DNA of 22,562 nucleotides from a virus. The stretch spans positions 1 to 22,562 of the IMG/VR virus record IMGVR_UViG_3300021961_000690; one strand, written 5' to 3'. The notes beneath the pieces were generated by a model, which was given only the letters and a program-made list of their open reading frames with translations, was not told where the DNA came from and did no database searches. A program made the translations under genes and the position numbers. Shown here piece after piece: positions 1 to 20,364 of the stretch (positions within the stretch are counted from its first letter, which is position 1; every line of letters starts with the position of its first letter).

Positions 1-135
1 GTTTTTGATTAACTCGTCTGTAATCTCTTCCCCTAAATGTTCATAGATAGCCATTTCCCTATCTGCGATTGTTTGTAAAATTTGCTCCGCCTCTTCTGCA
101 AAACGGGCAGTATCTTTTAACATACGGCGGAACAT
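1..135 (-). CDS. Unrecognised protein, N-terminal 45 residues only (cut by left edge)
   Basis: The reading frame is open from an ATG at 135 to the window edge. The start is supported by GGTGAT, which forms the last codons of the preceding gene; this ATG follows that gene's TAA with no spacer. The visible 45 residues begin MFRRMLKDTARFAEEAEQ and look like a charged, amphipathic helix. The beginning matches the tag of the preceding genes with Phe in place of Trp (M-F-x-x-M-L-K). Function unknown; by position it could be a neck or tail gene. It is too short in the window to classify. Confidence 0.75.
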   Translation of the reverse strand, partial: MFRRMLKDTARFAEEAEQILQTIADREMAIYEHLGEEITDELIKN

Positions 136-1131
136 TTAATCACCTTTGTAGTTTATGGACTGACGGAATATGTTATAAACGTTTCGTAATTCCTCAGGAT
201 TTGGGAATGCTGGAACGCCACCTTTGGTTTCAATAGAACTAATCCATTCATTCATTTCTTTAAAGAATTCACCTAATTTATTTGATGATTGTTGAATAGT
301 ATTTTCTACAATAAATTTACCCCAATTTGGATTATTACCATTTACTGTAACCTTGTCCTGTAATAGATTAATTAATTCATTCTTTTGACTTTCGTTCATA
401 ATAGAATTAGCATCAACCTCAGGCATTTTTTGTCTTCCTCTTCTAGCAAGAATTCTTTGGAAACTTGGTCTTTCTACTCTTGTTTCTGTTGAAGTAGTAG
501 CAATATCACTTGCGCCTAACCCCATTTCACTTGCTAATAAATAATCGTATAGGTTTAAGTTATTTTCTTGAGAACTTTGAATCATTTCATTCAAGTTTTG
601 CTTAACCATTTTACCTGTTTGTCTATCATAGGTATATCCAAAATTAGCGTCTTCAACTTCTTTTTTCCATGTATCAAAGTCTTCCACTTCGTTCCAAACT
701 TCGTCAAGATTAAAAGATTGAGGCATACTAATAATAATTTCTTTTAATACAGATGAAACAATAGCGGTAAGTAAATCTTCTTCATTATTTACTTGAGATT
801 CAGGAAGTAGTTTAATATTTGTTCCAATAACACTTCTAAAATAATAATCCCCTTCTTCGTTTTCATTCATAATAATATCAAAGGATTGTCTTTTTCCGGG
901 TGCGTATTTATTTCTATACGTTACGTTATATGTTCTAGTTTTACCTACTACCCTACCATTTGGAGGATTAAATCTAACATATGAACGACGACCACCGCCC
1001 TTCGGTCCTTCATAAATTTCTGCAACTGATTGACTTAATTTTCTCCTTAATTCATTAATGAACATATCCACATCAGAAACCACAAGGTCTACACCTGCTG
1101 ACGTTTTAATCTTTAAAACATCAAACCACAT
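136..1131 (-). CDS. Tagged protein of unknown function, 331 aa
   Basis: I place the start at the ATG at 1131 (MWFDVLKIK) rather than the TTG at 1143, because GGTGAT lies 4 bases before this ATG and overlaps the TGA of the preceding gene. I do not recognise the family. After the W-x-D-V-L-K tag comes a mixed domain (about 20-120) with a basic, Gly-rich stretch (about 41-60, EGPKGGGRRSYVRF) and beta-strand-like segments. The remainder is Asn/Gln/Glu-rich and helical, with no signal peptide or membrane helix. Its position after the head-tail adaptor and among small tagged proteins suggests a virion or connector protein, which is inference. Confidence 0.85.
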   Translation of the reverse strand: MWFDVLKIKTSAGVDLVVSDVDMFINELRRKLSQSVAEIYEGPKGGGRRSYVRFNPPNGRVVGKTRTYNVTYRNKYAPGKRQSFDIIMNENEEGDYYFRSVIGTNIKLLPESQVNNEEDLLTAIVSSVLKEIIISMPQSFNLDEVWNEVEDFDTWKKEVEDANFGYTYDRQTGKMVKQNLNEMIQSSQENNLNLYDYLLASEMGLGASDIATTSTETRVERPSFQRILARRGRQKMPEVDANSIMNESQKNELINLLQDKVTVNGNNPNWGKFIVENTIQQSSNKLGEFFKEMNEWISSIETKGGVPAFPNPEELRNVYNIFRQSINYKGD

Positions 1132-1136
1132 AGCAA

Positions 1137-1508
1137 TCACCAATTATAATTACAAGCCCAATACCCTGCCTTGGTTTTATCCTTCTTTTCATCACAGTTA
1201 TGACGGGATTTGAAATTAGCCCTTCGCTTTGAATCTTTGTGTTGTAAGAAATCCTTATACCCTCTTGCACCAAATTCCACTACACGGTATTTTCCATCCT
1301 GATGAGCCAATACACGATATTTCTTTTTGCTACCCTTAGGTGCTCTCTTAGGTTTATTAACACCGGGGAATTTTTCACCACGATACTTCACCCCACCTTT
1401 GACTCTTTCAATTTGAGGTTTTTTATTTCCGGCCTTTTCCACGTCTTCATCGCCACATGAATTACAGCCGCACCCACACCCTTTAAGAATATCTTTCCAA
1501 TCAGACAT
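1137..1508 (-). CDS. Tagged small basic Cys-rich protein, 123 aa (marine-virus family)
   Basis: The start is the ATG at 1508 (MSDWKDILKG), with GGGAGGG a few bases upstream; it overlaps the end of the preceding gene by 8 bases. Three parts are visible: the N-terminal tag (W4, L8, K9); a Cys cluster at C11, C13, C15 and C18; and a basic C-terminal domain (about 33-123) ending in an R-H-N-C...Y-W-A-C-N-Y-N-W pattern with C105 and C119. From memory, this last pattern (KRRxxFxxRHxC, then KTxAxYWxC) recurs in small proteins of marine phages and large eukaryotic viruses whose function is unknown; I could not search. The cysteines could bind a metal. It may be a packaged nucleic-acid-binding or structural protein. 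Confidence 0.85.
   Translation of the reverse strand: MSDWKDILKGCGCGCNSCGDEDVEKAGNKKPQIERVKGGVKYRGEKFPGVNKPKRAPKGSKKKYRVLAHQDGKYRVVEFGARGYKDFLQHKDSKRRANFKSRHNCDEKKDKTKAGYWACNYNW
1482..1499 (-). repeat. 18-base identical copy of tag-coding DNA (copy A)
   Basis: The minus-strand string TGGAAAGATATTCTTAAA encodes W-K-D-I-L-K at the start of the 123-aa Cys-rich protein. It is identical, including synonymous positions, to bases 2945-2962. Confidence 0.9.
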
Positions 1509-1971
1509 AAGCAACCCTCCCTTCTTCTTCTCTAAAATATGATAATGAATCTTGAATTAAATTAATAATAGGGGAATTAGGACCATGACCTTCGCTTCTA
1601 TACATTCTAAGTAATTCTTCAAGTGTTGGTTTTACATCATCATCATCTGTATCAAAAAGAAGCATTCTTAATTTTTGTGCTTCCTCATTTACATTATTAT
1701 TTAAATTTTGAATGAAAAACTTTCTTGCTTTTTTAGAAGTTAATGCATCATACGCTTTTAGGATAGCGGTAGCACCTGCACTTTGAAGACTTTCAACAGT
1801 TGAATTAATATATTCAAAAATTTGTTCCATTGGTTCTTTATTTTCTAAGGCTTCTTTAATAGCACCTAATGTGAAAATTAATTGATTCATAACTTCAACG
1901 ATTTCTTCTTCGTCCTCATCATCAGGGGCTTCGATATCAACCTTGAGAAGATTTTCCCAACTTACCACCAT
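1501..1971 (-). CDS. Tagged acidic protein of unknown function, 156 aa
   Basis: The start is the ATG at 1971 (MVVSWENLLKVD), with AGGTGGT about 4 bases upstream. Its first bases overlap the 3' end of the 31-codon gene at 1962-2057. After the tag (W5, L9, K10) comes a very acidic run (about 13-27) and then a helical region with alternating charges, probably an all-alpha fold. No catalytic motif, membrane helix or cysteines are apparent. Its acidity contrasts with the strongly basic tagged proteins upstream. I do not recognise the family. Confidence 0.82.
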   Translation of the reverse strand: MVVSWENLLKVDIEAPDDEDEEEIVEVMNQLIFTLGAIKEALENKEPMEQIFEYINSTVESLQSAGATAILKAYDALTSKKARKFFIQNLNNNVNEEAQKLRMLLFDTDDDDVKPTLEELLRMYRSEGHGPNSPIINLIQDSLSYFREEEGRVAYV

Positions 1972-2057
1972 TTCCACCACCTAATTTTAATACCATTACG
2001 GTATACCTGTTTATCTAACACGTCACTAATATATAAATCTAACCAAGCGTCACGCAT
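1962..2057 (-). CDS. Candidate very small protein, 31 aa
   Basis: An ATG at 2057 opens a 31-codon frame ending in TAA at 1962-1964. It fills almost exactly the gap between the stop of the preceding gene (2058) and the next start (1971), which it overlaps by 10 bases. A G-rich stretch (GGGGGG) sits about 7 bases before the ATG. The peptide starts MRDAWLDLYISDVLDK and ends in a Trp-rich tail (IRWWKWW). W5-x-D7-L8 is a weak match to the neighbouring N-terminal tag but lacks the Leu-Lys. The tight fit and overlap are the main support; it could be a chance frame. Confidence 0.5.
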   Translation of the reverse strand: MRDAWLDLYISDVLDKQVYRNGIKIRWWKWW

Positions 2058-2399
2058 TTATTTTCCCCCCTTTCCCCAAGTCTTTCCTCTTCCTTTTTGA
2101 TTACAAGCACCGGGCGTTGGCCTACATTCAGGGTATTCGCTTCTTTTTTCACCTTCTGCTCTTCCACAAGGTTTGCATTTCTTACGCCCGTTTTTATCCT
2201 CACGACAGGTATTGCAATCAATCCATCCACCTGTGCTTCCTTTAGCACCTTTACGACCGAACCAATCTGAAAGAGATTTCTCAGAAGAAGGCTTCGCAGT
2301 TAATTTCTTTCTTTTTTTTCGAGCCTTGCCCGGTTTTCTTGTGCGACCGCGTGACTTCTTTCGCTTGCGCTTAAGAACTTCCTGCCAATCATCAGTCAT
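2058..2399 (-). CDS. Tagged, highly basic Cys-rich protein, 113 aa (marine-virus family)
   Basis: The start is the ATG at 2399 (MTDDWQEVLK), preceded by GGGGTAATT and overlapping the preceding stop by 8 bases. After the tag (W5, L9, K10) comes an extremely Lys/Arg-rich stretch (11-33). A compact domain follows, with six cysteines (C62, C65, C75, C78, C92, C99), an SLSDWFGRKGA motif (42-52) and YPECRPTPGAC (89-99), then a Gly/Lys-rich tail. The DWFxRKGA...GWxDCNTC...CRPTPxAC pattern is one I recall from many marine phage and large-virus proteins of unknown function. A role in binding packaged DNA is suggested by its charge only. The C62/C65/C75/C78 set could bind zinc. Confidence 0.85.
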   Translation of the reverse strand: MTDDWQEVLKRKRKKSRGRTRKPGKARKKRKKLTAKPSSEKSLSDWFGRKGAKGSTGGWIDCNTCREDKNGRKKCKPCGRAEGEKRSEYPECRPTPGACNQKGRGKTWGKGGK

Positions 2400-2589
2400 T
2401 TGAATTACCCCAATTATCTGCACCAACTTTACGACATTGAACTAAAGCACCGGAAGCATAGGCCGAAGGCCACTTTTTATATCTACTCTTAACTTTGTAA
2501 TAACAAGCATCGCGCTTTACATTCTTTTTCTGTTTCTTACGGCGGGCTTTCTTTTTATTAGCCTTAAGCATTTCCCACCATTCATCCAT
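2392..2589 (-). CDS. Tagged small basic protein with PSAYAS motif, 65 aa
   Basis: The start ATG at 2589 follows the previous stop by 4 bases, with a GTGAT-like ribosome site in the overlap. The tag is MDEWWEMLKAN (W4, L8, K9). It is followed by a Lys/Arg run (12-26) and a conserved-looking C-terminal module (28-61): ACYYKVKSRYKKWPSAYASG, then ALVQCRKVGADNWG. I recall this PSAYASGALvxCRKVGAxNWG module as a short protein found in many marine phages and giant viruses, with no known function. It is probably nucleic-acid binding or structural. The tag appears to have been placed in front of an otherwise free-standing module. Confidence 0.85.
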   Translation of the reverse strand: MDEWWEMLKANKKKARRKKQKKNVKRDACYYKVKSRYKKWPSAYASGALVQCRKVGADNWGNSND

Positions 2590-2593
2590 AAAA

Positions 2594-2965
2594 TCACAAC
2601 CAAGTATTTAAGTCACCAAGGATTTTATGTTGTTCCATAATATCCTTGTAATATTTATCATTTTGTTTTCCGGCTCTAACAATAGCAATCGCGCACTTAT
2701 CAACGAATAATTTTAATTGTTTACACGATAATTTACTAACCATTTCTCTATCTTCTCTTGTAAATTTCTCTAAACCCTTAATATGTAAATTATGCAGGTT
2801 GCTACGGACTACAAGATTAGCCCTTGCACATACATTTCTATAACCGGGGTCGTCATTTGGAACAATCTTATCCGCATTTTCGATTGTATCGAGTAAGATA
2901 TATTCATCAGTTTCTACAACAATTTCACCTTCTCTAGGTTTAAATTTAAGAATATCTTTCCACAT
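2594..2965 (-). CDS. Tagged protein of unknown function, 123 aa
   Basis: The start ATG at 2965 (MWKDILKFK) lies 4 bases after the stop of the head-tail adaptor gene, with ATGTGAT as ribosome site. The tag occupies residues 1-7. The remainder appears to be alpha/beta, with a short beta-rich N-terminal part (about 14-30), a central helical region, and cysteines at about 47, 80 and 91. No known motif is seen. It is the first of the run of tagged genes, directly after the adaptor, so a neck, tail-completion or packaged role is possible; function is not assigned. Confidence 0.83.
   Translation of the reverse strand: MWKDILKFKPREGEIVVETDEYILLDTIENADKIVPNDDPGYRNVCARANLVVRSNLHNLHIKGLEKFTREDREMVSKLSCKQLKLFVDKCAIAIVRAGKQNDKYYKDIMEQHKILGDLNTWL
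2945..2962 (-). repeat. 18-base identical copy of tag-coding DNA (copy B)
   Basis: Same string as 1482-1499, here encoding W-K-D-I-L-K directly after the start codon of the other 123-aa tagged protein. Flanking sequence differs on both sides, and the two proteins are otherwise unrelated. Confidence 0.9.
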
Positions 2966-8191: not shown

Positions 8192-9445
8192 TCACTCCAA
8201 ATCAATAATCTTGCCTTGTCCACGGAAGTAAGTGCACATTGTTTCGCCAATGGTTCGGTAAAGTCCACGGTGTCCGAGTTTGCCGTGGCCGAATACATCA
8301 GCACCAACGCCACCCTCGAAATACTCGGTTGGCTTTAAGGTGCAAAGGAACAAGTGGTCGGTGTCTAGAACCAACATATCACTTAGACCTGTGCGGCCAG
8401 ACTTCGGCATATCCTTTGTGGGGATAATTGGGATGTCGTGGTATGTTGCAACACGGAAACCTACTTGGCGACCTTCAACACCCTTGATACCTGCGTGGGA
8501 CGGAACGATTTCCGAGCGACCCATGAAACGTTCTTGGGCTTGGAGTAATTCACCGAGAACCTGAATGGTGTCGTAGCCGGTTAGAATTACCTTAGGTTCA
8601 GCACCGCGAGCCATTAAGTCACGGAGCATTGTGTTTAGAATGTTCACAGTTAATGCACGGTCTGTTCCACCGTTTTCATCAACGAGAGATTCTAAGTGTT
8701 CAGCACCAGTCGAAGCACGGGTAGAACCGTAAAGGTTTAGGGAGTTTGTAAATAGACCATTTAACTCATCGAAGTTGGAAATAATCTGATACAAAGAGGT
8801 TAAACCTTGTAGGGGGTTTCCGGTTGATAGACCACGGTAGGTGGAGTCTGCTAGACCATCGGTTGAGTGAAGGTCAGTTAGCACCATCTTGTTCATAGAT
8901 TCAGCGTGAGAAATACCGACTTCTTCGCGGTAGTTTCGCATAAGGTCGCCAATGCCGTCGTCAAGACCAGCCATCAATTGTGCAATTTCCGAAACTTCGA
9001 AAGAGTGTGCAATTGTCTTGGGCGAAACGCTGAGAACATCGTATTCGGGACGGACGTTTAGAATGGTCGAAAGAGATTCGTTCTCATCAACACCACCAAG
9101 ACCCAAAGAGGACTCGTAGCCTGTTCCGCTAACATCGAAAGCGAAGGTATCACCGCCACCACCGATTGCACGTTCCTTTAGGATTCTCCAACCCGAGGAC
9201 TTCCAAGGCTTCTTGGGAAGCATGGAAAGTGCGTTAATTTCACGGTTAATCATAGACCATACTTTTTGTCCGTAAACAAGGTTGTATAGTGCGGGAACAT
9301 CAGCCGCGCCGGTTTGTGCGCCGTCGTGTGTTGTGTGAATCCCTTCTGTGATTACCTCTGTATATGCTTTGCTAATGCGGCCATTGTCGCCAAGACCGTA
9401 AGTAGCGCGTTCTAAGTCTGCAATTGTATTAAAATATCCTGTCAT
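8192..9445 (-). CDS. Major capsid protein, HK97-like fold, 417 aa
   Basis: The start is the ATG at 9445 (MTGYFNTIADLERA), with GAGGTGA 6 bases upstream; the in-frame GTG at 9454 lies on the ribosome site itself. It directly follows the protease-scaffold gene. Order, length and pattern fit the HK97 capsid family: a long N-terminal arm, a central region with a long helix (MRNYREEVGISHAESMNKMV), and an A-domain-like stretch (RALTVNILNTMLRDLMARGA, then PKVILTGYDTIQVLGELLQA). The end (HDIPIIPTKDMP, then DMLVLDTDHLFLC) resembles the C-terminal beta portion of these proteins. Its DNA is much more GC-rich than that of the large unknown genes, consistent with codon choice for high expression. The prohead protease may trim the N-terminal arm. 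Confidence 0.88.
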   Translation of the reverse strand: MTGYFNTIADLERATYGLGDNGRISKAYTEVITEGIHTTHDGAQTGAADVPALYNLVYGQKVWSMINREINALSMLPKKPWKSSGWRILKERAIGGGGDTFAFDVSGTGYESSLGLGGVDENESLSTILNVRPEYDVLSVSPKTIAHSFEVSEIAQLMAGLDDGIGDLMRNYREEVGISHAESMNKMVLTDLHSTDGLADSTYRGLSTGNPLQGLTSLYQIISNFDELNGLFTNSLNLYGSTRASTGAEHLESLVDENGGTDRALTVNILNTMLRDLMARGAEPKVILTGYDTIQVLGELLQAQERFMGRSEIVPSHAGIKGVEGRQVGFRVATYHDIPIIPTKDMPKSGRTGLSDMLVLDTDHLFLCTLKPTEYFEGGVGADVFGHGKLGHRGLYRTIGETMCTYFRGQGKIIDLE

Positions 9446-9455
9446 TTTTTTCACC

Positions 9456-10016
9456 TCAGTTTAATCTGTTAAATAGGTCATGGGCTTCATCCCACGACAT
9501 TTCGCTTACGCGAGAAAGTTCTTCGCTAACCTGAACGCGAGAGGCTTCAACCGACTTGGCGATTGTAGCGTCACCTTCAAGGGACTTGCGGAGAGCGTTA
9601 AACTCTTCCTTAAGTGCTTCAACTGCGTCTGCAGCGTTAAAGTCTTCTTTAGCGATACGGGCCTTTTCTTCTTCTAATTCAGCCTTGTAGCGAGCCTCGA
9701 ATTGTGCCTTGACTAAACCAAATGCACGTTCTTCCTCACGCTCGGCACGGAAAGCCTCGTAAGCCTTCTCAATGTTCGAGGGAGAAAGGTCGAGGGTTTC
9801 AGCACGAACAGACTTGTATTCTTTGTCCATTTCTTCTTCGCTGTAATCGCCCATCTCTACGTCTTCTTCTTCATCAGCCATTTCAACATCTTCTGTTTCC
9901 ATGCCTGCGGCCTCATCCATAGCCTCTACGTCTTCGGATTCTTCCTTGCGTAGTTCGCCCTTTAGTTCGGCCATTACTTCGTTAAATTCTTGTAATGCTT
10001 TTTCAATTTCACTCAT
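9456..10016 (-). CDS. Nested scaffold protein from internal start, 186 aa
   Basis: In frame within the protease gene, the ATG at 10016 (Met179, MSEIEKALQEFNEVM) is preceded by a near-perfect Shine-Dalgarno GGAGGA (10024-10029) with a 7-base spacer. It falls exactly at the boundary between protease and scaffold domains. The product would be a protease-free, acidic, coiled-coil-like scaffold with the same C-terminal W-D-E peptide. This parallels lambda C/Nu3, where scaffold is made from an internal start of the protease gene. The site is seen; translation from it is inferred. Confidence 0.65.
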   Translation of the reverse strand: MSEIEKALQEFNEVMAELKGELRKEESEDVEAMDEAAGMETEDVEMADEEEDVEMGDYSEEEMDKEYKSVRAETLDLSPSNIEKAYEAFRAEREEERAFGLVKAQFEARYKAELEEEKARIAKEDFNAADAVEALKEEFNALRKSLEGDATIAKSVEASRVQVSEELSRVSEMSWDEAHDLFNRLN

Positions 10017-10550
10017 TTTAGTGTCCTCCTTAACAATGTCAAATTTGGCTTCGGGATTGATGCCTTCCTCACAAATGGTAATCTCATGGAGTTCTAATTT
10101 ATCAATTTCTTTATAGGTCCCCACCGATTCATTGTGTCGGTTAACTTTATTCAATGCCTGTCCACCAATCGAGAAAGAACGTAGTTTCCCCTTTCTTACG
10201 TCACGGGCTACTTCTCGCGCCTTCTCGATATCATCTCTTAACTTAATTACTACAAAAAAACCTGTATCATCAACGCCTGTTTTTAGGACTTTTCCTTTGG
10301 AATCTGTATATGTGTCTAAAACTTCACCAACCTGAACGTTAGAATGCGTAATCATAACGTTTCGGTATCGGTCGTTTTTCATAAATTTGTCTGCCGCTTC
10401 ACGGATAGCAGGAAGTGTAATCATATCATTCTGCTTATCCACTACATCAACAGATGCGTAGCCCGCAATAACGGTGTCCTTATCTTCCTTCATTACAATG
10501 AATTCGCTACCGGCTTCGGGCGAATTACCAAACATAAGTGACTCGAACAT
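9456..10550 (-). CDS. HK97-family prohead protease fused to scaffold domain, 364 aa
   Basis: The start ATG at 10550 has AGGAG about 9 bases upstream and sits in a short leader behind a TATA box. Residues about 15-175 are the serine protease: IAGYASVDVVDKQNDMI, the catalytic His motif MITHSN (H69), the catalytic Ser in LRSFSIGG (S127 likely), and the family ending ELHEITICEEGINPEA. Residues 179-364 are helical and very acidic (about 205-245), typical of a scaffold. They end in MSWDEAHDLFNRLN, a Trp-acidic-Leu peptide with W353. The protein would organise and then degrade the procapsid interior. An internal ribosome site before M179 suggests that scaffold is also made separately. Confidence 0.88.
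   Translation of the reverse strand: MFESLMFGNSPEAGSEFIVMKEDKDTVIAGYASVDVVDKQNDMITLPAIREAADKFMKNDRYRNVMITHSNVQVGEVLDTYTDSKGKVLKTGVDDTGFFVVIKLRDDIEKAREVARDVRKGKLRSFSIGGQALNKVNRHNESVGTYKEIDKLELHEITICEEGINPEAKFDIVKEDTKMSEIEKALQEFNEVMAELKGELRKEESEDVEAMDEAAGMETEDVEMADEEEDVEMGDYSEEEMDKEYKSVRAETLDLSPSNIEKAYEAFRAEREEERAFGLVKAQFEARYKAELEEEKARIAKEDFNAADAVEALKEEFNALRKSLEGDATIAKSVEASRVQVSEELSRVSEMSWDEAHDLFNRLN
10024..10029 (-). promoter_or_regulatory. Internal Shine-Dalgarno GGAGGA for nested scaffold
   Basis: On the minus strand, AAGGAGGACACTAAA precedes the ATG at 10016. The match to the 16S anti-Shine-Dalgarno is as good as, or better than, the site of the full-length protease gene. Its location at a domain boundary argues against chance. 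Confidence 0.65.
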
Positions 10551-10628: not shown

Positions 10629-12698
10629 TTATGACTCATAAATATCAATTACCCCTTTATCTGAATCTTTTGGTGCGGGTTTCTGTTCATATCCGGTCCA
10701 TGCTAACCACATTTCTTTACCACCTACCGGCAATAATCTAACGTGTAGTTTTGAACGAATATCCTTACCACTTAGAATGTATTCATGGTAGTCAGTTCTT
10801 TGTGCACCGAGAATAACTGTCCCTTTATCAATTACCTTATCTTGAGAGGATTCCTTAACAGCCTTTGCAGGATATTTACCAGCCTCCCCTAAGAAGTCGT
10901 ATAACTCTTCATCGGAAGAAGCCTCGATTTCCCAAGTTTGTTTTTTACCATCATAGATAAATGTAAAGTTGAGATTACCTGTATTAGTTAATGATAATAC
11001 AAAGGACCCTCTTCTTTCTGCCTTTAGTAAGCCCTTGAAAACATAGCGGTTACCTTCCTTTTCGATACCATAGGCTTCACCACCATTGTCTAACCTTTCA
11101 GTCATTTTCTTCATGTTGCCCTTAAACAATCGGTCCATTAAGTCCTCGTCATGGTCCATTCCTGCGTTGTAAATATCTTCTGCAGACATTCTTTTGTCCT
11201 CGAGAATTTGCGCTACAAAGGCCATGAACCTTCCATTATCCTTTCCATAGGTTTCTTGTAATTTCTGCTTCCAAAGGTCCATTTCCAAATTAGCCATCTT
11301 AGCCATTAGGTTATCCTTTTCAAAATCATAAAATACAAATCCTTCAGGTTCGATTCCATATTCCATTTTTGCAATTCCGTGAATACCGTCACTAACTGTG
11401 TAGGACTTTTTCAATGCTTCAACCTTATAATCACCCAATGATTTACGTCCACCTTCGGATAATAATTCCAAAGAAATAGCCCTATCCGGTTGCTCCACTT
11501 CAGGGATTTCGTGAATCTTTGCACCACCTAAGGTAAAGCCCTTTTCCTTGCTACCCAAAATATCGTCCACCTTTACGCGAATGATACTACCAACAGGAAG
11601 TTTTTTACTGTAATTAGCGGCCTTACCAACGGGCATGTATTTTTTCCCACCAATGGATTTTAACTTAGAACCTTCTTCTTCAGGACCAACACCCATTGTA
11701 TAGGAATAAGTATTATTAGCATTTTTACGAGCCTCGAGAATAATTACATCAAGGTCTACAAAATTCTTCCACTTAACCCATTTTGGGTTCTTTTTCTTAC
11801 CAATGATATATGAAGATTTGGCGTCCTTAATAACAACACCTTCAGCGGTGGGGTTATTCATAATTTCTTCAGCATAGCGGGCGATTTCTTCTTTAGAATC
11901 TGCATCGCGTGTATTTTTCTTATTAGGGAATGTAATATCATCATTAGCCAATGCAGAAAAGTTTTGCATAAGAACTTCGAGTCTATCCTCTAGTTTTTCT
12001 TTGTAAACTTCATCACCCGCAAAATGCATGATATCGAAAACGTGAATTCTGATATCTGCACTTTCAGCGTTTTTCTTATTAATATACGCTAATGTATCAG
12101 ACCTTACCAATGGGTCGTCGTCTTTGTATAGCACCGCTTCACCATCAATAATAAAATCACCAACGTCTTTCTTTTCTAAATATTCTGCAAGTTGTGTAAA
12201 CTTGGGTGTAATATCATTCCCATTAAAAGAATAAACCTTGACCTTATTATCAAAGTTGTGAACCTGAACCCTTAGACCGTCGTATTTTTCTTGAACGATA
12301 TAGAAACCTGTAAAGCCACGAATTTCATCTAAGTCGTCAATTTCAAAGATTCTATACATTGGTTTATTTGGAATAATAAACTTGGGATTCTCTTCTTCCT
12401 TCAAAAATGTGTAGGGTTTCTTTGGTTCTAAATCAGTAATGGCTGAGTATAATTTCTGCGCCTGCTCACTTCTAACATTAAGAGATAAATTAGAAAATAG
12501 AATATCATCTTCAAAGTCAAACTCAGCACGAATAATTGGGTCGCTCATAAGTTTCCTAAGTTCTAAAACCAATTTTTCCCATTCTTGACCGAAGGCTTTT
12601 TGATTATCAACGCCTGTAAGATAGCGTGAGGCTACCACGTTTCTAAGCATCATAATGTGCGGTTGCACATCAGGAGTCTGCACTTCGAATGGATTCAT
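10629..12698 (-). CDS. ATP-dependent DNA ligase with long C-terminal extension, 689 aa
   Basis: The preferred start is the ATG at 12698 (MNPFEV), with GAGATGAT 4 bases upstream; an overlapping ATG at 12707 adds three residues. Ligase motifs are clear: I, EKYDGLRV with nucleotide-accepting K138; III, DGEAVLYK (E187); IIIa, HVFDIM; IV, EGVVIK (286-291); V, KWVKWK (306-311). An OB-fold-like region runs to about 405. It would seal nicks using ATP. Residues about 410-689 are an unusual addition; the end (HEYILSG, then LHVRLLP, MWLAWTG) faintly recalls LigD phosphoesterase-like beta domains, which I could not verify. Placement inside the head-assembly block, not with replication genes, suggests a role in or near the capsid. 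Confidence 0.85.
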   Translation of the reverse strand: MNPFEVQTPDVQPHIMMLRNVVASRYLTGVDNQKAFGQEWEKLVLELRKLMSDPIIRAEFDFEDDILFSNLSLNVRSEQAQKLYSAITDLEPKKPYTFLKEEENPKFIIPNKPMYRIFEIDDLDEIRGFTGFYIVQEKYDGLRVQVHNFDNKVKVYSFNGNDITPKFTQLAEYLEKKDVGDFIIDGEAVLYKDDDPLVRSDTLAYINKKNAESADIRIHVFDIMHFAGDEVYKEKLEDRLEVLMQNFSALANDDITFPNKKNTRDADSKEEIARYAEEIMNNPTAEGVVIKDAKSSYIIGKKKNPKWVKWKNFVDLDVIILEARKNANNTYSYTMGVGPEEEGSKLKSIGGKKYMPVGKAANYSKKLPVGSIIRVKVDDILGSKEKGFTLGGAKIHEIPEVEQPDRAISLELLSEGGRKSLGDYKVEALKKSYTVSDGIHGIAKMEYGIEPEGFVFYDFEKDNLMAKMANLEMDLWKQKLQETYGKDNGRFMAFVAQILEDKRMSAEDIYNAGMDHDEDLMDRLFKGNMKKMTERLDNGGEAYGIEKEGNRYVFKGLLKAERRGSFVLSLTNTGNLNFTFIYDGKKQTWEIEASSDEELYDFLGEAGKYPAKAVKESSQDKVIDKGTVILGAQRTDYHEYILSGKDIRSKLHVRLLPVGGKEMWLAWTGYEQKPAPKDSDKGVIDIYES

Positions 12699-12703
12699 TT
12701 TAA

Positions 12704-13126
12704 TCATCTCAAGGTGGGTTGCATAGCATCAGCGGCTTCTACTTCTAAGGTGTGCTTTAGTCTGCGAATCTTTTCTAAAGTCTGTTCAATAGAAGCGGCT
12801 ACGTCCTTAGATTGTGAATCTTCAGGAGCGGTAGGAGGTTCAACAGGAGCATCTCCTGATTCATCAAATGCCGGTTCTTTGTATAGCATATCATTCTTAG
12901 GCATTAAACTTGGTGTGCCCTTCTTAAACGCTTCAGGTAGTCCCTTTGTATATGGTCGAGCGGCTAATCTTTCTACATCTGTTTTCTTAGGTTTTACAGT
13001 CTTATATGCTTGTGCGTTAGCCGATTCGACTAAAGCCCCAAGAGCATTTGTTACTAATGTTTCTAACTCGACTAGTCGAGAATATACTGTTTCTTTCTGT
13101 GTTAAATCTTCTGTTTCTTTCATCAT
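12704..13126 (-). CDS. Small helical protein of unknown function, 140 aa
   Basis: It overlaps the previous gene by 4 bases (ATGA), which suggests translational coupling; a second ATG at 13123 is equally possible. G-rich sequence lies just upstream. The protein has an N-terminal helix with coiled-coil character (about 14-38), a Pro/Lys-rich middle, an acidic, Pro-rich linker (about 88-106), and a C-terminal helix (SIEQTLEKIRRLKHTLEVEA). No known motif. It lies between the 75-aa protein and the ligase; a small head-assembly or chaperone role is conceivable but unproven. Confidence 0.78.
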   Translation of the reverse strand: MMKETEDLTQKETVYSRLVELETLVTNALGALVESANAQAYKTVKPKKTDVERLAARPYTKGLPEAFKKGTPSLMPKNDMLYKEPAFDESGDAPVEPPTAPEDSQSKDVAASIEQTLEKIRRLKHTLEVEAADAMQPTLR

Positions 13127-13350
13127 TGTCCCCCCATTCTATCAACGAGTTCGTCTAATTGGTCCCAAGACATTTTAGCAATAGTATTTGAATCAGGGTT
13201 TAAACTTTGGGTCTTAGCAGACGGGCGTGGTGTATGTGCTACAAAGCCCGACTTAAGCAAAGTCATTTCAGATTCTAACACTTGGCGTTCTAAGTCCTTT
13301 ACTCTTTCAACAAGCATTTTCAAAATTTCTAATGTATTTTCTTCATTCAT
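13123..13350 (-). CDS. Coiled-coil protein with C-terminal W-D-Q docking-like peptide, 75 aa
   Basis: It overlaps both neighbours by 4 bases (ATGA); the ribosome site GGAGG/GAGGA lies in the preceding gene's end. Residues 5-33 form a clear coiled coil (LEILKMLVERVKDLERQVLE). A flexible Ser/Pro/Thr linker follows, then AKMSWDQLDELVDRMGGQ with W62. The last segment closely matches the C-terminus of the protease-scaffold (MSWDEAHDLFNRLN). This design (oligomerising helix, linker, short terminal peptide) looks like an adaptor or mini-scaffold. Function is inferred from the shared peptide. Confidence 0.8.
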   Translation of the reverse strand: MNEENTLEILKMLVERVKDLERQVLESEMTLLKSGFVAHTPRPSAKTQSLNPDSNTIAKMSWDQLDELVDRMGGQ

Positions 13351-15689
13351 TCTTCCTCATCCTCCGGATAAACTTCTTCTCTAATATCTTCATATAGGCC
13401 TTCGTATAATTTTCTTAAGCGGGCGGCTAGTTTAATAACCTTGAGGTTTCGCTCGTTAAGCCCTTCAAGCATTTCCTCATCCCCTTCTTCGGAAACCCCT
13501 TCTAATACTTCAATGAGTTTCCCTAGTTTTAAATATTCCTCTCCAAAGTAAGAGGTCGGGTCAGCATCCTGTAAATAAGTCTTGACTTCCCTTCGTTGTT
13601 TTTCGTTTAGTGAACCAACGTCCATTTTCTCAAATCGAGCCGCCTCGTTTTCTGCTCTGAAGCGTTGTCTTTTTTCCTCTGTCGAAATGCCCGGAGATAT
13701 AGACGTGTTTCCTAATAACTCCGGTTCTTCTTCAACAATTTTAGCATCTTCATTTAATTCAATAAATACCCTATTAATAATATCGTATTTCTGTTCACCT
13801 TCTTTAATTCGCTTTAATTGAATATTTTTAATTCTATCTCTATCATCGTAAGAGATAACTAAATCATTTCTTGTAATATTTAAATTTTTAACTAATTCAT
13901 CAAGTTTACTTTCAATTGTTTCATGAATATTGTTTCTTTCATCTTCATTCTTTTTTCTTTCACTATGGTATTTACGGAAATTGGATAACATATTATCTCT
14001 TTTTTCAACAAGTAAGTCATTGTTTTCAGCAAGAGTTTTTTCCTTGTCTAAAATACCCGAAGACATACTTTTTAAATCCTTTAAATTAGAATCTTTTGTA
14101 TCAGAGGGAATATCCTTATAGGGTTTATTATACCCAAGTTCAAGGTTTTTATCCGCACCTGCTTCTTGTTTATCTCTAATTTTATCAAGTAATCTCAAAA
14201 TATTATCAATTTTTCTTATTTCCTTCTCTTCAGCAGGTTTCATAGTTTCCTTAAGTTTATTTAATTCTTGTAACTTTCTACCAATTTCGATATATAATGG
14301 TTCAATATTTTCTTTATAAAATTCCATAGCAAATGCAGAATTTTCATAGGGAGAAAGTAAAGAATAATTTACCTTCTTTCTAGATGGTGAAACTTCAGGA
14401 CGTTCAATTGATTCAGGGATTCTAAAGGGCGTTTTAAACTCTGGTGCTACACCGCTTCCTACAAGGTTTTTACCCTTTTCGTCATATACGTTCTTAGCCC
14501 CAAGCCCTACACCTGCACCCATTTGAGATTTTAATGCACCTGCTACCCAAGAACCTAACGGTAATTTCATTCCTTCAGGTCCAACTTCCTTAGAATATAA
14601 TTCCATAACCTTATCCCTTGTTTGGGGGGTCAATGCTTCTAAATAATTGGGAGAAGTTAAGACTTGAATAGCATACACTTCATCGCCCTTGAAAATTTTA
14701 AATAAATTTTTATAGAATAATTTTCTATCAAATTTTCCTGATGATGGGAACATACGCTCGCTTTCTCTGACGATTTTACTATACAATGGAGATGTAATTA
14801 AACTACGACCCAATTCTTCAATAGTATTAGCAGAAACATTTGATTCTGAAGTCATAAACGCTTGAAGTTCCCTAAAGAAAATAGAAGCAAATTTCTTAAT
14901 AGGGACCTTATCAACATCTTCTAAAGGATAATAATTTTTAGTAGCCCATTCTTGCCAAACATCTAAAGCGTCCTCGTATACTTTATTAGAAGCATTTTTC
15001 TTTAAAACTTCTTTATTAATATAACTAATTTTAGGATTAACCTTACTTGGACTATCACTAAATCTAATAATATTCCCATTACTAGATTGAATCTTGATAC
15101 CCTTAGCATCAGGAATTACCTTATCCTTTAAACCTCTTAAGTAAGGAACAAACATACCATAAAAATCTTCTTCCTTTGATTCTAAATTAGTCACGTTATA
15201 ATTTTCAATCATACGCATTAATCTATTAATGTCTGACTTATTAACACCATCATTATTTTCTTGTAGATTATTTAAGGCTTTAACAATAATAGAATAATCG
15301 TTTTGTGAAATACCTCTATTAAATTCAATCATAAAATTTCTGATATCAACATTTGAAACGCCCTTTGTTGTTAAAAATTCAAAGGTTTGTCCGTATAGTT
15401 TCTTATCTCGAACAATTTTAGCGGGAGGACTAGGCTTATATTCAAAACCCTTATCTCCGGGTCTAAGTATAGAAAACAAAGGTGCGCCTACTGTATCTGA
15501 GGGTAATGTAGCAGTTGACGGATATTTTTCAGCAAATTCCTCTTCAGTTAATCTTCTTTTTTCATCTGCAGAAACACCTTCCCCTCTTGCTTCTCTTTGA
15601 CTAGTTTTTGGAAAACCTTCTAGGGATGGCGGTCTGCGGAATGGAAACCCCTTACCCTTTTTATCTTCTTTTTCTTTTTTTCTAGCCAT
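13347..15689 (-). CDS. Very large hydrophilic protein of unknown function, 780 aa
   Basis: The start is the ATG at 15689 (MARKKEKEDK), with GAGGTG 5 bases upstream; the in-frame TTG at 15707 lacks a site. Not recognised. It has a strongly basic N-terminus, then a QREARGEGVSADE motif (31-43) also found near the start of the 951-aa protein. A helical body follows, with one Gly-rich amphipathic segment (about residues 380-400, SWVAGALKSQMGAGVGLGAK), and the C-terminal half has long charged coiled-coil-like helices and a very acidic end. It is AT-rich. It lies two genes after portal. A portal-associated or internal ejection protein is one idea, with no direct evidence. Confidence 0.85.
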   Translation of the reverse strand: MARKKEKEDKKGKGFPFRRPPSLEGFPKTSQREARGEGVSADEKRRLTEEEFAEKYPSTATLPSDTVGAPLFSILRPGDKGFEYKPSPPAKIVRDKKLYGQTFEFLTTKGVSNVDIRNFMIEFNRGISQNDYSIIVKALNNLQENNDGVNKSDINRLMRMIENYNVTNLESKEEDFYGMFVPYLRGLKDKVIPDAKGIKIQSSNGNIIRFSDSPSKVNPKISYINKEVLKKNASNKVYEDALDVWQEWATKNYYPLEDVDKVPIKKFASIFFRELQAFMTSESNVSANTIEELGRSLITSPLYSKIVRESERMFPSSGKFDRKLFYKNLFKIFKGDEVYAIQVLTSPNYLEALTPQTRDKVMELYSKEVGPEGMKLPLGSWVAGALKSQMGAGVGLGAKNVYDEKGKNLVGSGVAPEFKTPFRIPESIERPEVSPSRKKVNYSLLSPYENSAFAMEFYKENIEPLYIEIGRKLQELNKLKETMKPAEEKEIRKIDNILRLLDKIRDKQEAGADKNLELGYNKPYKDIPSDTKDSNLKDLKSMSSGILDKEKTLAENNDLLVEKRDNMLSNFRKYHSERKKNEDERNNIHETIESKLDELVKNLNITRNDLVISYDDRDRIKNIQLKRIKEGEQKYDIINRVFIELNEDAKIVEEEPELLGNTSISPGISTEEKRQRFRAENEAARFEKMDVGSLNEKQRREVKTYLQDADPTSYFGEEYLKLGKLIEVLEGVSEEGDEEMLEGLNERNLKVIKLAARLRKLYEGLYEDIREEVYPEDEEE

Positions 15690-15691
15690 AT

Positions 15692-15913
15692 TCACACCTC
15701 TTTCCAACGCTTTCTCATTCGAGGACCTGCTTCAATTGCATATCCTACACGACTTGGTGCATCCCGCTTATCACCATCAGTAATAGGTTCAGGAACAGGT
15801 GGTGATACCGTCCTTGTTTTCCTAACCTCAGGTTCGGGTGCATTAACCTTATTCTCAATTTGGCTCAACTGCTTTTTTGCTTCGTCTAATTTTCTTCTGA
15901 TAATATCACTCAT
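15692..15913 (-). CDS. Small protein of unknown function, 73 aa
   Basis: The start ATG at 15913 overlaps the portal stop (ATGA), with GGAGG about 8 bases upstream; the next gene starts 2 bases after its stop. It has an N-terminal coiled-coil-like helix (MSDIIRRKLDEAKKQLSQIE), a Pro-rich middle, and a basic C-terminus (RMRKRWKEV). No motif recognised. Tight coupling to portal suggests a portal partner or head-assembly accessory. Confidence 0.78.
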   Translation of the reverse strand: MSDIIRRKLDEAKKQLSQIENKVNAPEPEVRKTRTVSPPVPEPITDGDKRDAPSRVGYAIEAGPRMRKRWKEV

Positions 15914-17570: not shown

Positions 17571-18935
17571 TCATTCCTCCTTAACGATACTATCTAACTC
17601 GTTCATCAGTTCCCATTTATTACTTTCCCGGTATTTAGTAATATCCTCTTCAGTAATTCCATACTTAACGAATTCGTCTTGGTTCCTAGCATCCTTCCAA
17701 TTTTCCCACTTGATGAGTTTAAAAATCTGCTCGACTCGCTCCTTAGCCCACGGTTCTTTCTTGAAATGCTTCTTGATTCTGATAGCCTCTTGAAGTAATC
17801 TGCCCTGTGTCTGTTTCATACGAAGATGGGGAAGGCACTTGTCTAATAGTTTAATAATATCATTCTGAGCATAGAAATTTAAACGATGTTGGCTACGCGA
17901 ATTTTCTCCTACCTTTTGGTCTAAATGTAGTCGCCCAATATTTAACTCTTTCTCTAATTCTGTAAAGAATGCCCGCCCACGGTTGCCCGTTGCAATCATA
18001 CCAATGCGGGGGGCATAAGAAGAATCCATAGTGATAAAACCGTCAGAATCAATGAAACCCGCAACGTAGGAATAGAGGTCTTTTTTAATCTCGTCACTTA
18101 GTAAGTAATACTCACCATCAACATTGGTTACACCAAGTTTGCGTAACATCTTTGCAATTGTTTGAGGACTAGTAGAATTTTTATATGAATTGGGAAGAAT
18201 AGCATGTAGGTGATTACTTGTAATTCCCGGTGTTTTACAAACCTGTTTAATTAATTCATCATCCAACCTTTCCTGTCTGCTCTTACGAATTGATTGGTGA
18301 TTGATTTCCTTTAATACACTTCGAATCTCTTTCTTTGTTTCCTTAAAAATATTACTAAATTTGCAGTATTCACTACCGTAATCCAATTCAGATTTTTTAG
18401 TATCTGCATCCCACATTCTTAAAAGCATATCTACTACTTCTGTTCTTGTTTTACCATCCTTGATGTGTTCAAATTTTTTCAAGGTATCCAAACTTGGGGT
18501 AAGTAGTCTCACCGCTTTCTTATATGGCTTCAACCAATAGATAGATTCGAGGGTATCGTTTAGGTGTCCCGTATAAGCCTTAATTAGATGGTCTATTGTA
18601 TTAGACATTTTAACTCTTGCATCACCCTTTAACTCTCTTCTCATCATACGGAGTTCCTTAATAATTTCAGGAATAGTCTTACTATCAATAAGTGGTTCAT
18701 CAGGCATCTTAGTTAACATATCAGCCGCATCGGTTAGATTGATAGAATAATTTTTAGAAATTTCCTTAATTACTTCGGATTCATCTAAGGATAAATATTC
18801 CGACCAAGATTTTCCCACAAGTTCCTTAATCTTGTTTTTGACTTCTTCGGTTTCCTCTTGTTCTCGAGCCAATTCTTGAAGAGCCGCAATTGTAGCATCT
18901 GTATTAATTTTTTCTTCCTTATAGATTAATCCCAT
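17571..18935 (-). CDS. LAGLIDADG homing-endonuclease-like protein with long N-terminal region, 454 aa
   Basis: The start is the ATG at 18935, with GGAGGTG 7 bases upstream; it overlaps the terL end by 17 bases. Residues 1-220 are helical and unrecognised. Residues 225-280 look like a winged-helix DNA-binding segment (LIKQVCKTPGITSNHLHAIL). Residues 285-400 are a single-motif LAGLIDADG domain (YVAGFIDSDGFITMD, acidic D297 or D299), with the family's later LRMKQTQ segment. One motif implies it works as a dimer. There are no intein splicing motifs, and terL is intact. The C-terminus has NKWELMNELDSIV (W441), like the scaffold C-terminal peptide. It could be mobile, or recruited for packaging or regulation. 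Confidence 0.82.
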   Translation of the reverse strand: MGLIYKEEKINTDATIAALQELAREQEETEEVKNKIKELVGKSWSEYLSLDESEVIKEISKNYSINLTDAADMLTKMPDEPLIDSKTIPEIIKELRMMRRELKGDARVKMSNTIDHLIKAYTGHLNDTLESIYWLKPYKKAVRLLTPSLDTLKKFEHIKDGKTRTEVVDMLLRMWDADTKKSELDYGSEYCKFSNIFKETKKEIRSVLKEINHQSIRKSRQERLDDELIKQVCKTPGITSNHLHAILPNSYKNSTSPQTIAKMLRKLGVTNVDGEYYLLSDEIKKDLYSYVAGFIDSDGFITMDSSYAPRIGMIATGNRGRAFFTELEKELNIGRLHLDQKVGENSRSQHRLNFYAQNDIIKLLDKCLPHLRMKQTQGRLLQEAIRIKKHFKKEPWAKERVEQIFKLIKWENWKDARNQDEFVKYGITEEDITKYRESNKWELMNELDSIVKEE

Positions 18936-20364
18936 AAATCCCACCTCCGAAATTTTGTTTTTGAATAATAGACTGTAACGGGTCTTCGTTACCTCCGAAA
19001 ATGCCTCCACCGTCAATTTCAATGAATGAATCATTGAACGATTTGGTGGCTTGGTTAGCCAAAGCAAGAGCAATCACGGCATCGTCGTGTGCGCCTAATC
19101 CTTCAATCTTACCTGTGGATGAAATACCAAACGCCTCCAATTCTTGAACAATTGCATTAGTCATACTCTTAGCGGTGTCGTCCGCATAAGGGAAATGAAT
19201 CTTATTATTCTCAAGATTCATCTGCAGGTTTAAAATAATTTCCTCCTTCTTCCTTCGGGACATTGTAAACTCACGGACAGGGAAATCGGAAATGTCGCGT
19301 AATTCCATAGCAAAGGACTTTGCAAACGTGTTTGTTTCAATCATAACCAACTCAGGCTTGTATCTAACACAAAGGTCTGAGATACGATGAATGTGTCCCC
19401 TGAAGTCTAGATTTTTTTCTCTCGTCATATGGACCACCGTTTTATTCATATCCTCATCAACTTCGAGAACAAGCATCACGGTGTAGTCACCATCTTGACT
19501 CAATGATGGGTCATAGCCAATATAGTATTTATAGGCTTCGTTATTGCCTGAATATTTTGTAGTAATAGTCCTATCCTTAGCGGCTTCAATATGTTCTTTT
19601 TGGAATAACATAGTGTTAGACGAAATTGGGATACATAGATATTCACGGGTAAATTTTGAAGAGCCGATTTCACGCTTACGTTTTTCGAGGGAATCAATAT
19701 CCCAACGGGAAGGCCATAGCGCATGGCCCGCCTGATTGATAGCCGGATAACGCTTAACATCATATTCACTATTTTCTTCTAATTCTGCGAAGATATCTGT
19801 ATAGGTGAAAGGGGTTCCAATCATTCTTAGCGTAGACGTGTGGTGAAGGGTAGGAATCATGTCGCCCCAAAACCAATCTGAAACACGTTGAATAGCCGCT
19901 ACTGAGAACTCTTTCATAGGGTCGTCCACAATGATTTCATCAGGGTGAAGACCACGAATCTGTGAGCCAACGGAACGTTCAAGAATTTCATTACCATTAG
20001 TCAATCGCATAGCACCAACGGCCCAACCGGACTTAGGTTTGAATCTTCTTAGGGCAGGGATATTGGTAAACATACGGTCAATATCTTTCATGTGAACCAT
20101 AGTCTGTTTTTGGTTAGAAGAAATATATAGCATCTGATAAGGCGGCTCTTGGAAAATTAATTGATACACACACCAAGAGTGGAAAAAGACAGACTTACCG
20201 TGGTCGCGGGAACAAATTGTAACCGTGCGTTTTGTATCGTTTACACGTTCTAACCATTCTCTATGAAACGGGGCCATCTCGTAGCCGAGAACTTTGGTAA
20301 AAAAATATTCAAAGTTGCCCTTAGAAGCGGCAAGGTCCATTTCCGTAAGTAGGTCTAACGACAT
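18919..20364 (-). CDS. terL: Terminase large subunit, 481 aa
   Basis: The start ATG at 20364 follows GAGTGAT. This is the ATP-driven DNA-packaging motor and headful or site-specific nuclease. The ATPase shows Walker A CSRDHGKS (51-58), Walker B EIIVDD (143-148), and a coupling motif MIGTPF (181-186). The RNase H-like nuclease shows GYDPSLSQDGDYTV (acidic D285), MIETN (E343), and GAHDDAVIALALA (D427/D428). The gene is complete and uninterrupted, with usual length. A Gly-rich tail (FGGGIYGINL) overlaps the next start. No small terminase subunit is recognised in the window. Confidence 0.93.
   Translation of the reverse strand: MSLDLLTEMDLAASKGNFEYFFTKVLGYEMAPFHREWLERVNDTKRTVTICSRDHGKSVFFHSWCVYQLIFQEPPYQMLYISSNQKQTMVHMKDIDRMFTNIPALRRFKPKSGWAVGAMRLTNGNEILERSVGSQIRGLHPDEIIVDDPMKEFSVAAIQRVSDWFWGDMIPTLHHTSTLRMIGTPFTYTDIFAELEENSEYDVKRYPAINQAGHALWPSRWDIDSLEKRKREIGSSKFTREYLCIPISSNTMLFQKEHIEAAKDRTITTKYSGNNEAYKYYIGYDPSLSQDGDYTVMLVLEVDEDMNKTVVHMTREKNLDFRGHIHRISDLCVRYKPELVMIETNTFAKSFAMELRDISDFPVREFTMSRRKKEEIILNLQMNLENNKIHFPYADDTAKSMTNAIVQELEAFGISSTGKIEGLGAHDDAVIALALANQATKSFNDSFIEIDGGGIFGGNEDPLQSIIQKQNFGGGIYGINL

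Follow-up and report, generated by a model that had tools for sequence, protein, structure and literature searches.

Proteins with unrelated bodies, encoded among the late genes of a group of viruses that infect abundant marine archaea, begin with one short peptide. We consider it probable (roughly two chances in three, judging from the sequences) that this peptide is a capsid-loading tag that mimics the docking end of the capsid scaffold. The scaffold ends in the same peptide, and for this reason the tag is probably an address label for the virus head. The tag module comprises eight residues, M-[S/N/T]-W-x-[D/N]-[I/V]-L-K.

Six genes of the window begin with the same peptide

The stretch of DNA analyzed (here, the window) comprises positions 1 to 22,562 of IMG/VR record IMGVR_UViG_3300021961_000690. 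Six of its genes, all on the minus strand, start with M-x(0-3)-W-x-[D/E/N]-φ-L-K; the N-terminal tags that a first-pass annotation had claimed for these genes were all present where it had placed them.

2945-2965, minus strand: tag MWKDILK, heading a 123-aa gene (2594-2965)
2563-2589, minus strand: tag MDEWWEMLK, heading a 65-aa gene (2392-2589) with a basic WPSAYASG domain body
2370-2399, minus strand: tag MTDDWQEVLK, heading a 113-aa basic Cys-rich gene (2058-2399)
1942-1971, minus strand: tag MVVSWENLLK, heading a 156-aa acidic gene (1501-1971)
1482-1508, minus strand: tag MSDWKDILK, heading a 123-aa gene (1137-1508) with DUF5754 (PF19058, E = 1.7e-12)
1111-1131, minus strand: tag MWFDVLK, heading a 331-aa gene (136-1131)

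For the 26 called genes of the window, the internal rate of the motif predicts 0.002 N-terminal tags, and the probability of finding at least six is about 3e-20. A near-identical record of 21.8 kb, which reaches ~6 kb beyond the left end of the window, carries the identical six tags and none further. Two additional candidates of the annotation were not upheld. MFRRMLK, with which the partial gene at 135 begins, has no W; its counterpart in relatives, a small protein that starts with MFRK-I-L-E, was assigned from its location and sequence similarity (no match in a profile search). The 31-aa open reading frame (ORF) at 1962-2057, regarded as a weak version of the tag, has no L-K.

The tag was present in 10 of 10 members of the family of the 331-aa protein and in the majority of the 36 matches to an iterated profile of the DUF5754 gene. 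No homologous body was found among the related loci examined for either the 123-aa gene at 2594-2965 or the 156-aa acidic gene. An AlphaFold2 model of the 331-aa protein shows residues 1 to 5 as disordered, with a folded body behind them; a fold search with this protein yielded no convincing match (best E = 0.013, low TM). TGGAAAGATATTCTTAAA is present twice in the window, and some neighboring genes share long DNA identity.

The tag is enriched on the morphogenesis strand of related viruses

The relatives of the window (TerL identity, 66 to 89%) agree with Magrovirales, the viruses of Poseidoniales, in genome size, strand arrangement and gene content, and the window is part of the late module. 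According to the ICTV text, Magrovirales have a genome of 90 to 110 kb in which the genes for replication form one cluster and those for morphogenesis another, opposed to it, and their gene set comprises a family B DNA polymerase, clamp loader, TFB, chaperonin and ATP-dependent ligase. Pfam matches in the relatives included a split DNA_pol_B, Cpn60, Rep_fac_C, TFIIB Zn ribbon and ligase. The chaperonin encoded by these viruses is of the Cpn60 family (GroEL-type).

The comparison set consisted of 12 near-complete related genomes (~68 to 98 kb, magrovirus-like) and the window. The tag was found on 227 of 948 morphogenesis-strand genes, as opposed to 2 of 732 genes on the opposite strand (Fisher P = 4e-59). 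The annotation had described completely different bodies behind the tag, and the 227 genes indeed comprise 132 unrelated bodies across the 12 genomes and the window. Each virus has about 20 tagged proteins, soluble and unrelated to one another, which are encoded with the head and packaging genes; the tags cluster upstream of TerL and near the portal gene, and the tail module has few or no tagged genes. A membrane segment was predicted for 0 of the 227 tagged proteins and for 109 of 721 untagged late ORFs, a set that includes spurious small ORFs. When 129 tagged proteins were compared with Pfam and PHROGs, the only matches were PAP2, DUF5754, SUKH_6, DUF6782 and a few unknown PHROGs.

The annotation had also suggested a search for enrichment in related contigs. 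Among 1,680 called genes, the motif was N-terminal in 168 cases and internal in 7, and 103 of 107 matches in the window and 80 related IMG/VR loci lay 1 to 5 codons past a start codon. A motif scan gave mostly 5 to 14 matches per ~90-kb genome, on one strand only, whereas a reversed control pattern produced one match in total across the same scan. In a collection search, a codon-swapped control pattern had 47 single matches as opposed to at least 120 for the tag pattern. Forty-six of 120 collection matches were listed without a magrovirus relative; these were mostly short ORFs or members of a holin-like MNWADILKAVIPV family and were taken as coincidence rather than true tags. Of the 27 late proteins listed for HVTV-1, a virus of the haloarchaeal relatives (Druskaviridae), none started with W-x-[DEN]-φ-L-K, and its prohead protease lacked such a motif at the C terminus. 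A single genome scan bearing on host carriage found only two contigs, likely misbinned viral sequences. We found no published description of the tag peptide or of magrovirus targeting or scaffold proteins, and no virion proteomics for these uncultured viruses.

The tag is a protein-level feature

The 168 tags are encoded by 139 distinct 18-mers, with all six Leu codons and all Ile codons in use, which argues that the tag is selected at the protein rather than the DNA level. Information content was 2.6 bits at the tag lysine and 0.3 bits at the following residue, and conservation was highest at W, followed by L and K. Most tags have an acidic residue (D/E) or N at position +2, and only one positive charge is conserved. 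Mis-assigned starts had been raised as a possible flaw. An archaeal-type Shine-Dalgarno sequence preceded 65% of the starts with a tag, 63% of those without one (genes of >150 aa) and only 10% of internal in-frame ATGs, which indicates that the tagged starts are genuine. The tag, originally described as N-terminal, is not strictly so: copies also occur at C termini and at domain junctions. In a family of 360- to 484-aa proteins, the tag is N-terminal in two genomes (G017 and G023) and C-terminal in four (G006, G010, G020 and G012).

The protease-scaffold ends in the tag pattern

Other features of the window bear on how the tag may work:

8192-9445, minus strand: major capsid protein, SU10_MCP family (PF17236, E = 2.9e-9)
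9368-9376, minus strand: ISK with the invariant K26 in the N-terminal arm of the capsid protein, candidate maturation cleavage site
9456-10550, minus strand: prohead protease (Peptidase_S78; PF04586, E = 9.6e-12) with a fused coiled-coil scaffold-like domain
9459-9500, minus strand: C-terminal putative docking motif of the protease-scaffold, MSWDEAHDLFNRLN, with M-S-W-x-[D/E]-[I/V/A/L], the tag pattern
10029-10043, minus strand: FDIVK at the protease-scaffold junction, candidate self-cleavage site
13123-13350, minus strand: 75-aa coiled-coil protein, candidate second scaffold, present in 12 of 12 genomes
13126-13173, minus strand: C-terminal putative docking motif of the 75-aa protein, MSWDQLDELVDRMGGQ, with M-S-W-x-[D/E]-[I/L]
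13252-13260, minus strand: LLK in MTLLKSGFV of the 75-aa protein, candidate protease site

The C-terminal motif was found in 62 of 62 distinct C termini of protease-scaffold homologues and was kept on the 75-aa protein in all 12 genomes. Thirty genes had the C-terminal pattern, 26 of which belonged to one of these two families; about 5 were expected by chance overall. W353 of the protease-scaffold is invariant in the alignment, and in a weak, low-confidence model a separate C-terminal helix begins at this residue. The +4 residue is L in tags and H or N in the protease-scaffold. Neither the capsid protein nor the protease had useful PDB relatives by sequence.

Both the N-terminal arm of the capsid protein and the 75-aa protein contain φ-φ-K, the second half of the tag. 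In the arm, it was present in 51 of 51 distinct N-terminal stretches, within variable and gapped surroundings; the mature capsid chains of HK97 begin at residue 104, directly after K103. The mid site of the 75-aa protein is conserved in relatives as [ILV]-[LM]-[LM]-K-[SA]-G, and the protease-scaffold junction reads F-[DEN]-[IL]-[LVI]-K in 49 of 49 distinct homologues. Since HK97 gp4 has AAMKS at a comparable place, the lysine of FDIVK may be structural instead. The residue following the lysine is A/Q/S/G in the capsid protein as opposed to E/A/N/R/K in the tags, which makes cleavage of the tags uncertain. Moreover, the motif is kept in C-terminal tags, where a cut would release nothing, so that the common function has to be docking rather than cleavage.

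Proposed mechanism and alternatives

We propose that the tag folds as a short amphipathic helix with W, I and L on one side, which would dock on the partner used by the scaffold C terminus. This partner would most likely be the major capsid protein, at its inner face, or otherwise another procapsid component, and tagged proteins would thus be enclosed during procapsid assembly. With less confidence, we suggest that the S78 prohead protease then cuts directly after the lysine of D-I-L-K, freeing the cargo; the same protease probably also cuts at the invariant lysine of the capsid protein arm. T4 internal proteins and Alt enter the host with the DNA. That part of the cargo does likewise in these viruses is the step we hold with the least confidence. 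We lean slightly toward a single peptide code that would serve both to assemble the procapsid and to load its cargo, with the scaffold docking end copied onto about a quarter of the late genes, in N-terminal, internal or C-terminal position, and overlapping a protease cut site.

The tag could instead direct late proteins to a different partner, of the virus or of the host, for example an assembly compartment or the GroEL-type chaperonin that these viruses encode. We regard this as unlikely: it leaves unexplained both the motif at the C termini of the protease-scaffold and the 75-aa protein and the almost complete lack of tags on tail proteins and on genes of the replication strand. Less likely still, only the second half of the peptide would count, as a recognition leader for the prohead protease, with head entry achieved by other means. 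The strong conservation of L and K after W, the φ-φ-K shared with the 75-aa protein and the arm of the capsid protein, and the cut after lysine in HK97 are consistent with such a leader. However, the first half, M-S-W-x-D, is also conserved and is the part common to the scaffold C termini, and C-terminal tags would be senseless as leaders.

Some proteins, for example MreB, are anchored by short N-terminal amphipathic helices, and W, I and L on one helix face would suit an anchor that holds late proteins at the host membrane. The acidic residue or N at +2 in most tags, the lone conserved positive charge, the same acidic pattern at the scaffold C terminus and the lack of other membrane features in every tagged protein make this reading improbable. 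Finally, the long DNA identity between some neighbors and the tandem paralogue arrays might suggest a by-product, either an element that acts in the mRNA or at the start of translation or a remnant of one duplicated gene start. The codon diversity (139 DNA words for 168 tags, with every Leu and Ile codon) and the C-terminal and internal copies already contradict this explanation, as do the 132 unrelated bodies, and we give it almost no weight.

If the capsid-loading reading is true, the head protein content of uncultured archaeal viruses would be readable from sequence, with ~20 candidates per virus, most of them without any known relative. It would provide an open-ended list of virion-enclosed proteins for one of the most abundant virus groups of the surface ocean, a loading peptide that is defined and portable, and a specific contact open to testing, between the capsid shell and the tag or the end of the scaffold. 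It would also mean that T4-style cargo tagging has arisen in an order of archaeal viruses, and there on a far larger scale. The tag singles out orphan late genes that are worth work as possible early-acting host-modifying proteins.

Comparison with known systems

The annotation had likened the tag to the capsid-targeting sequence (CTS) of T4. The analogy is well supported with respect to the small, diverse, soluble cargo, the morphogenesis strand, the almost untagged tail module, the scaffold end and the CTS-like pattern, but not as sequence homology; the loading into virions and delivery to the host cell that the annotation also suggested stand as proposals. The T4 CTS (MKTYQEFI or MKTFKEFT), carried by the internal proteins IPI, IPII and IPIII, is likewise a short conserved N-terminal peptide on diverse, small, often basic proteins and shares the order aromatic-x-acidic-hydrophobic-hydrophobic. 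Because the tag resembles MKTYQEFI in pattern only, it may work like a T4 CTS rather than be one. The magrovirus tag differs in its archaeal-virus setting, in its number (~20 tagged genes per genome rather than a handful), in its presence at the protease-scaffold C terminus and at cargo C termini or junctions, and in its candidate cut, which an S78 protease would make after lysine, whereas T4 gp21 cuts after glutamate. T4 internal proteins are highly diverse, with only the CTS conserved (PMC3012670); they associate with the scaffold core and are cleaved by the prohead protease (PMC5694885).

HK97 is similar in its protease family, Peptidase S78, and in the capsid protein N-terminal-arm lysine as a candidate cut site. 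Unlike in HK97, the magrovirus protease is fused to a scaffold-like coiled coil with a conserved putative docking motif, and its proposed substrates, from sequence alone, include many cargo proteins. In herpesviruses, the protease-scaffold and the scaffold share a C-terminal capsid-binding peptide. Magroviruses similarly have two proteins, one with and one without a protease, that end in one short amphipathic motif, but here the motif is also on many cargo proteins and capsid binding is putative. The giant phages SPN3US and phiKZ target many different proteins into the head, where the prohead protease processes them (PMC5694885). The inner-body propeptides of these phages are mostly ~100 residues or longer, as opposed to eight for the magrovirus tag.

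Two cargo domains of the window also occur in cyanophages. The WPSAYASG domain (gene 2392-2589) is shared, at 80 to 90% identity, with proteins of T4-like cyanophages; in S-E7, the annotation is that of a T4-like structural protein. S-CREM2 ORF137, which was detected in virions, has only a DUF6321-like end in common with the S-B64 cyanophage protein; it does not contain the WPSAYASG domain of the window and is thus weak evidence. The LHDWF-type domain of gene 2058-2399 was found both in a WPSAYASG-bearing cyanophage protein and in tagged mosaic proteins of the relatives.

Viral affiliation and gene content

The window, a single 22.6-kb virus record, comes from a tailed archaeal virus and covers part of its late module, with all genes on the minus strand.

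Late genes recognized in the window
TerL, minus strand, PHROG 38
Portal, minus strand, PHROG 18178
10629-12707, minus strand, ATP-dependent DNA ligase
9456-10550, minus strand, prohead protease (Peptidase_S78) with a long C-terminal extension
Major capsid protein, minus strand, SU10-type

The window TerL matched 80 IMG/VR relatives at 66-89% identity, several of them on contigs of 86-98 kb. Their genomes are arranged in two gene clusters of opposed orientation, with a chaperonin, a split family B polymerase, a clamp loader, a TFIIB-type zinc ribbon and a UvrD-type helicase on the other strand. This layout and gene set agree with the ICTV account of Magrovirales, viruses of Poseidoniales (PMC10768690, PMC12999244). 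Assignment of the window virus and its relatives to this order rests on gene content.

In the window as in relatives, the ligase is encoded among the head genes, with portal on one side and prohead protease on the other, which is unusual for an enzyme of replication or repair. The end of TerL is overlapped by a gene (17571-19073, minus strand) with a LAGLIDADG-like stretch, SYVAGFIDSDG; relatives have a similarly sized gene at this TerL-portal site, which suggests either a homing endonuclease resident there or a late protein formed by fusion. Two records assigned to Altibacter and Maricaulis MAGs (NZTP01000014.1 and NZMJ01000115.1) carry a TerL with about 80% identity to that of this virus family and are probably misbinned virus contigs.

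A peptide tag shared by unrelated late proteins

Six small genes in succession in the window start with M-x(0-3)-W-x-[D/E/N]-φ-L-K, where φ is a hydrophobic residue; judging by how often the motif occurs within proteins, only 0.002 such starts were expected among the window genes. The first-pass annotation, which had singled out these six genes, is thus upheld, except that its two weaker cases, the gene at 135 and a 31-aa open reading frame, proved untagged on comparison with relatives and direct reading. The enrichment at N-termini that it proposed to look for in related viruses was found: the motif directly followed the start codon in 103 of 107 matches across the window and the 80 TerL loci, and was N-terminal in 168 of 175 matches in a gene set made up of 12 near-complete genomes, read whole, plus the window.

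Under a looser motif definition, the tag was present on 227 of 948 morphogenesis-strand genes versus 2 of 732 on the opposite strand (Fisher p = 4e-59). The genes were called by our own greedy procedure; some of the small open reading frames among them are spurious, which can only dilute this strand effect. In a motif-free test, 266 late genes had tryptophan at residues 2-4, and 231 of these had lysine five residues later. Information content is high from W through K and drops to 0.3 bits one position further on. All six leucine codons are used, and 168 tags derive from 139 distinct DNA words. Ribosome-binding sites are as frequent before tagged starts as before those of other genes, which contradicts mis-assignment of starts. 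Together, the N-terminal enrichment, W-to-K conservation, codon diversity and normal ribosome-binding sites leave us virtually certain that the tag is a real, selected module common to many proteins.

Behind the tag, the bodies are as different as had been claimed, forming 132 clusters between which no relation could be detected. Known families are few among 129 tagged representatives (PAP2 phosphatase, DUF5754, SUKH_6 and a DUF6782-type metallopeptidase); several further proteins carry HExxH motifs, and none of the 227 tagged proteins has a predicted membrane segment. The cargo domain at 2392-2589 shares 80-90% identity with part of gp114 of Syn9, a T4-like cyanophage, likewise a domain; this type of protein is annotated in phage S-E7 as a T4-like structural protein. 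In the predicted model of the 331-aa tagged protein, residues 1-5 are disordered ahead of the folded body.

Most tagged genes lie within about ten kb upstream of TerL and some near the portal; the tail module has few, if any. In the window they come after the head-completion region. Three related genomes contain tandem arrays of 4-9 tagged paralogues (G010:C1:71083-75890, G003:C1:83832-89600 and G012:C1:87760-89979). The array proteins have in common a further N-terminal segment, which closes with a string of acidic residues and a cysteine (often DDC), with highly variable bodies behind it.

The tag motif on scaffold-like proteins

The prohead protease is fused to a coiled-coil, scaffold-like domain whose C-terminus reads M-S-W-x-[D/E]-[I/V/A/L]-[H/N] in 62 of 62 distinct relatives (EMSWDEAHDLF in the window), which corresponds to tag positions one to six. 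A 75-aa coiled-coil protein (13123-13350), present in 12 of 12 genomes and absent from the first-pass annotation, ends in the same motif (IAKMSWDQLDELV in the window). Of 30 genes in the set with the C-terminal pattern, against about 5 expected by chance overall, 26 belong to these two families. The tag also changes ends within a family of 360-484 aa, being N-terminal in two genomes (G017 and G023) and C-terminal in four (G006, G010, G020 and G012), and several proteins, one a PAP2 fusion, bear a second tag at a domain junction. A low-confidence model of the protease-scaffold shows a separate C-terminal helix opened by the conserved W; the W, I and L of the tag would line up on the same side of a short helix.

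Because it appears functional at either protein end and matches the scaffold end, the tag would most simply be a docking peptide for a procapsid component. It would direct its carriers into the procapsid, docking as the scaffold C-terminus does, a reading to which we give a probability of roughly two in three. That a good part of the cargo then enters the host is a more tentative proposal, to which we lend slightly less than even odds.

The internal proteins of T4 are a very diverse set in which only the targeting peptide is conserved (PMC3012670); these proteins associate with the core of the scaffold and are prohead protease substrates (PMC5694885). Their MKTYQEFI or MKTFKEFT shares with the magrovirus tag an aromatic-x-acidic-hydrophobic-hydrophobic pattern, so the likeness to T4 drawn in the first-pass annotation holds at that level, but by sequence the tag is not a member. 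In our reading, the tag would function like the T4 capsid-targeting sequence. The scale is new, at 9-24 tagged genes per magrovirus genome.

Possible cleavage after lysine

The N-terminal stretch of the capsid protein is variable and gapped among relatives, except for a single lysine (K26 in the window) that never changes and that follows two hydrophobic residues in 51 of 51 sequences; the same φ-φ-K-[S/A]-G occurs in the middle of the 75-aa protein. In HK97, whose gp5 is matured by a protease of the S78 family, mature PDB chains show that the cut falls after Lys103. The tag has I-L-K at its end, and its conservation goes no further than K. By analogy with HK97, and given the shared φ-φ-K and the end of conservation, the lysine is a likely P1 residue in the capsid protein and a possible one in the tags. 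Against cleavage of the tags, the residue after K differs from that in the capsid protein, and C-terminal tags retain the motif although nothing there would be released; we give removal by the prohead protease slightly less than even odds. FDILK is conserved at the protease-scaffold junction in 49 of 49 sequences, but HK97 gp4 shows AAMKS at a comparable place, so the motif may mark no more than where the S78 fold ends.

Related and unrelated sequences

A holin-like family outside magroviruses (five records) starts with MNW(A/G/Q)DILKA(V/I)IPV, which fits the tag pattern; we rejected it as an unrelated, coincidental match. In the haloarchaeal relative HVTV-1, the tag was not found at the starts of 27 late proteins, nor the motif at the C-terminus of the prohead protease. 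Proteins 113, 115 and 116 of that virus, among several head-module proteins near its prohead protease, carry an N- or C-terminal repeated module resembling VYVxSPxEAPE...GGxYY, which could be an analogous, unrelated head-targeting module of haloarchaeal viruses.

Between the portal and the 75-aa gene, the window encodes an untagged 786-aa protein (13347-15707, minus strand). Its homologues in four related genomes (G001, G002, G003 and G015) start with the tag, and in several others it has shrunk to a tag-like protein of about 110-120 aa.
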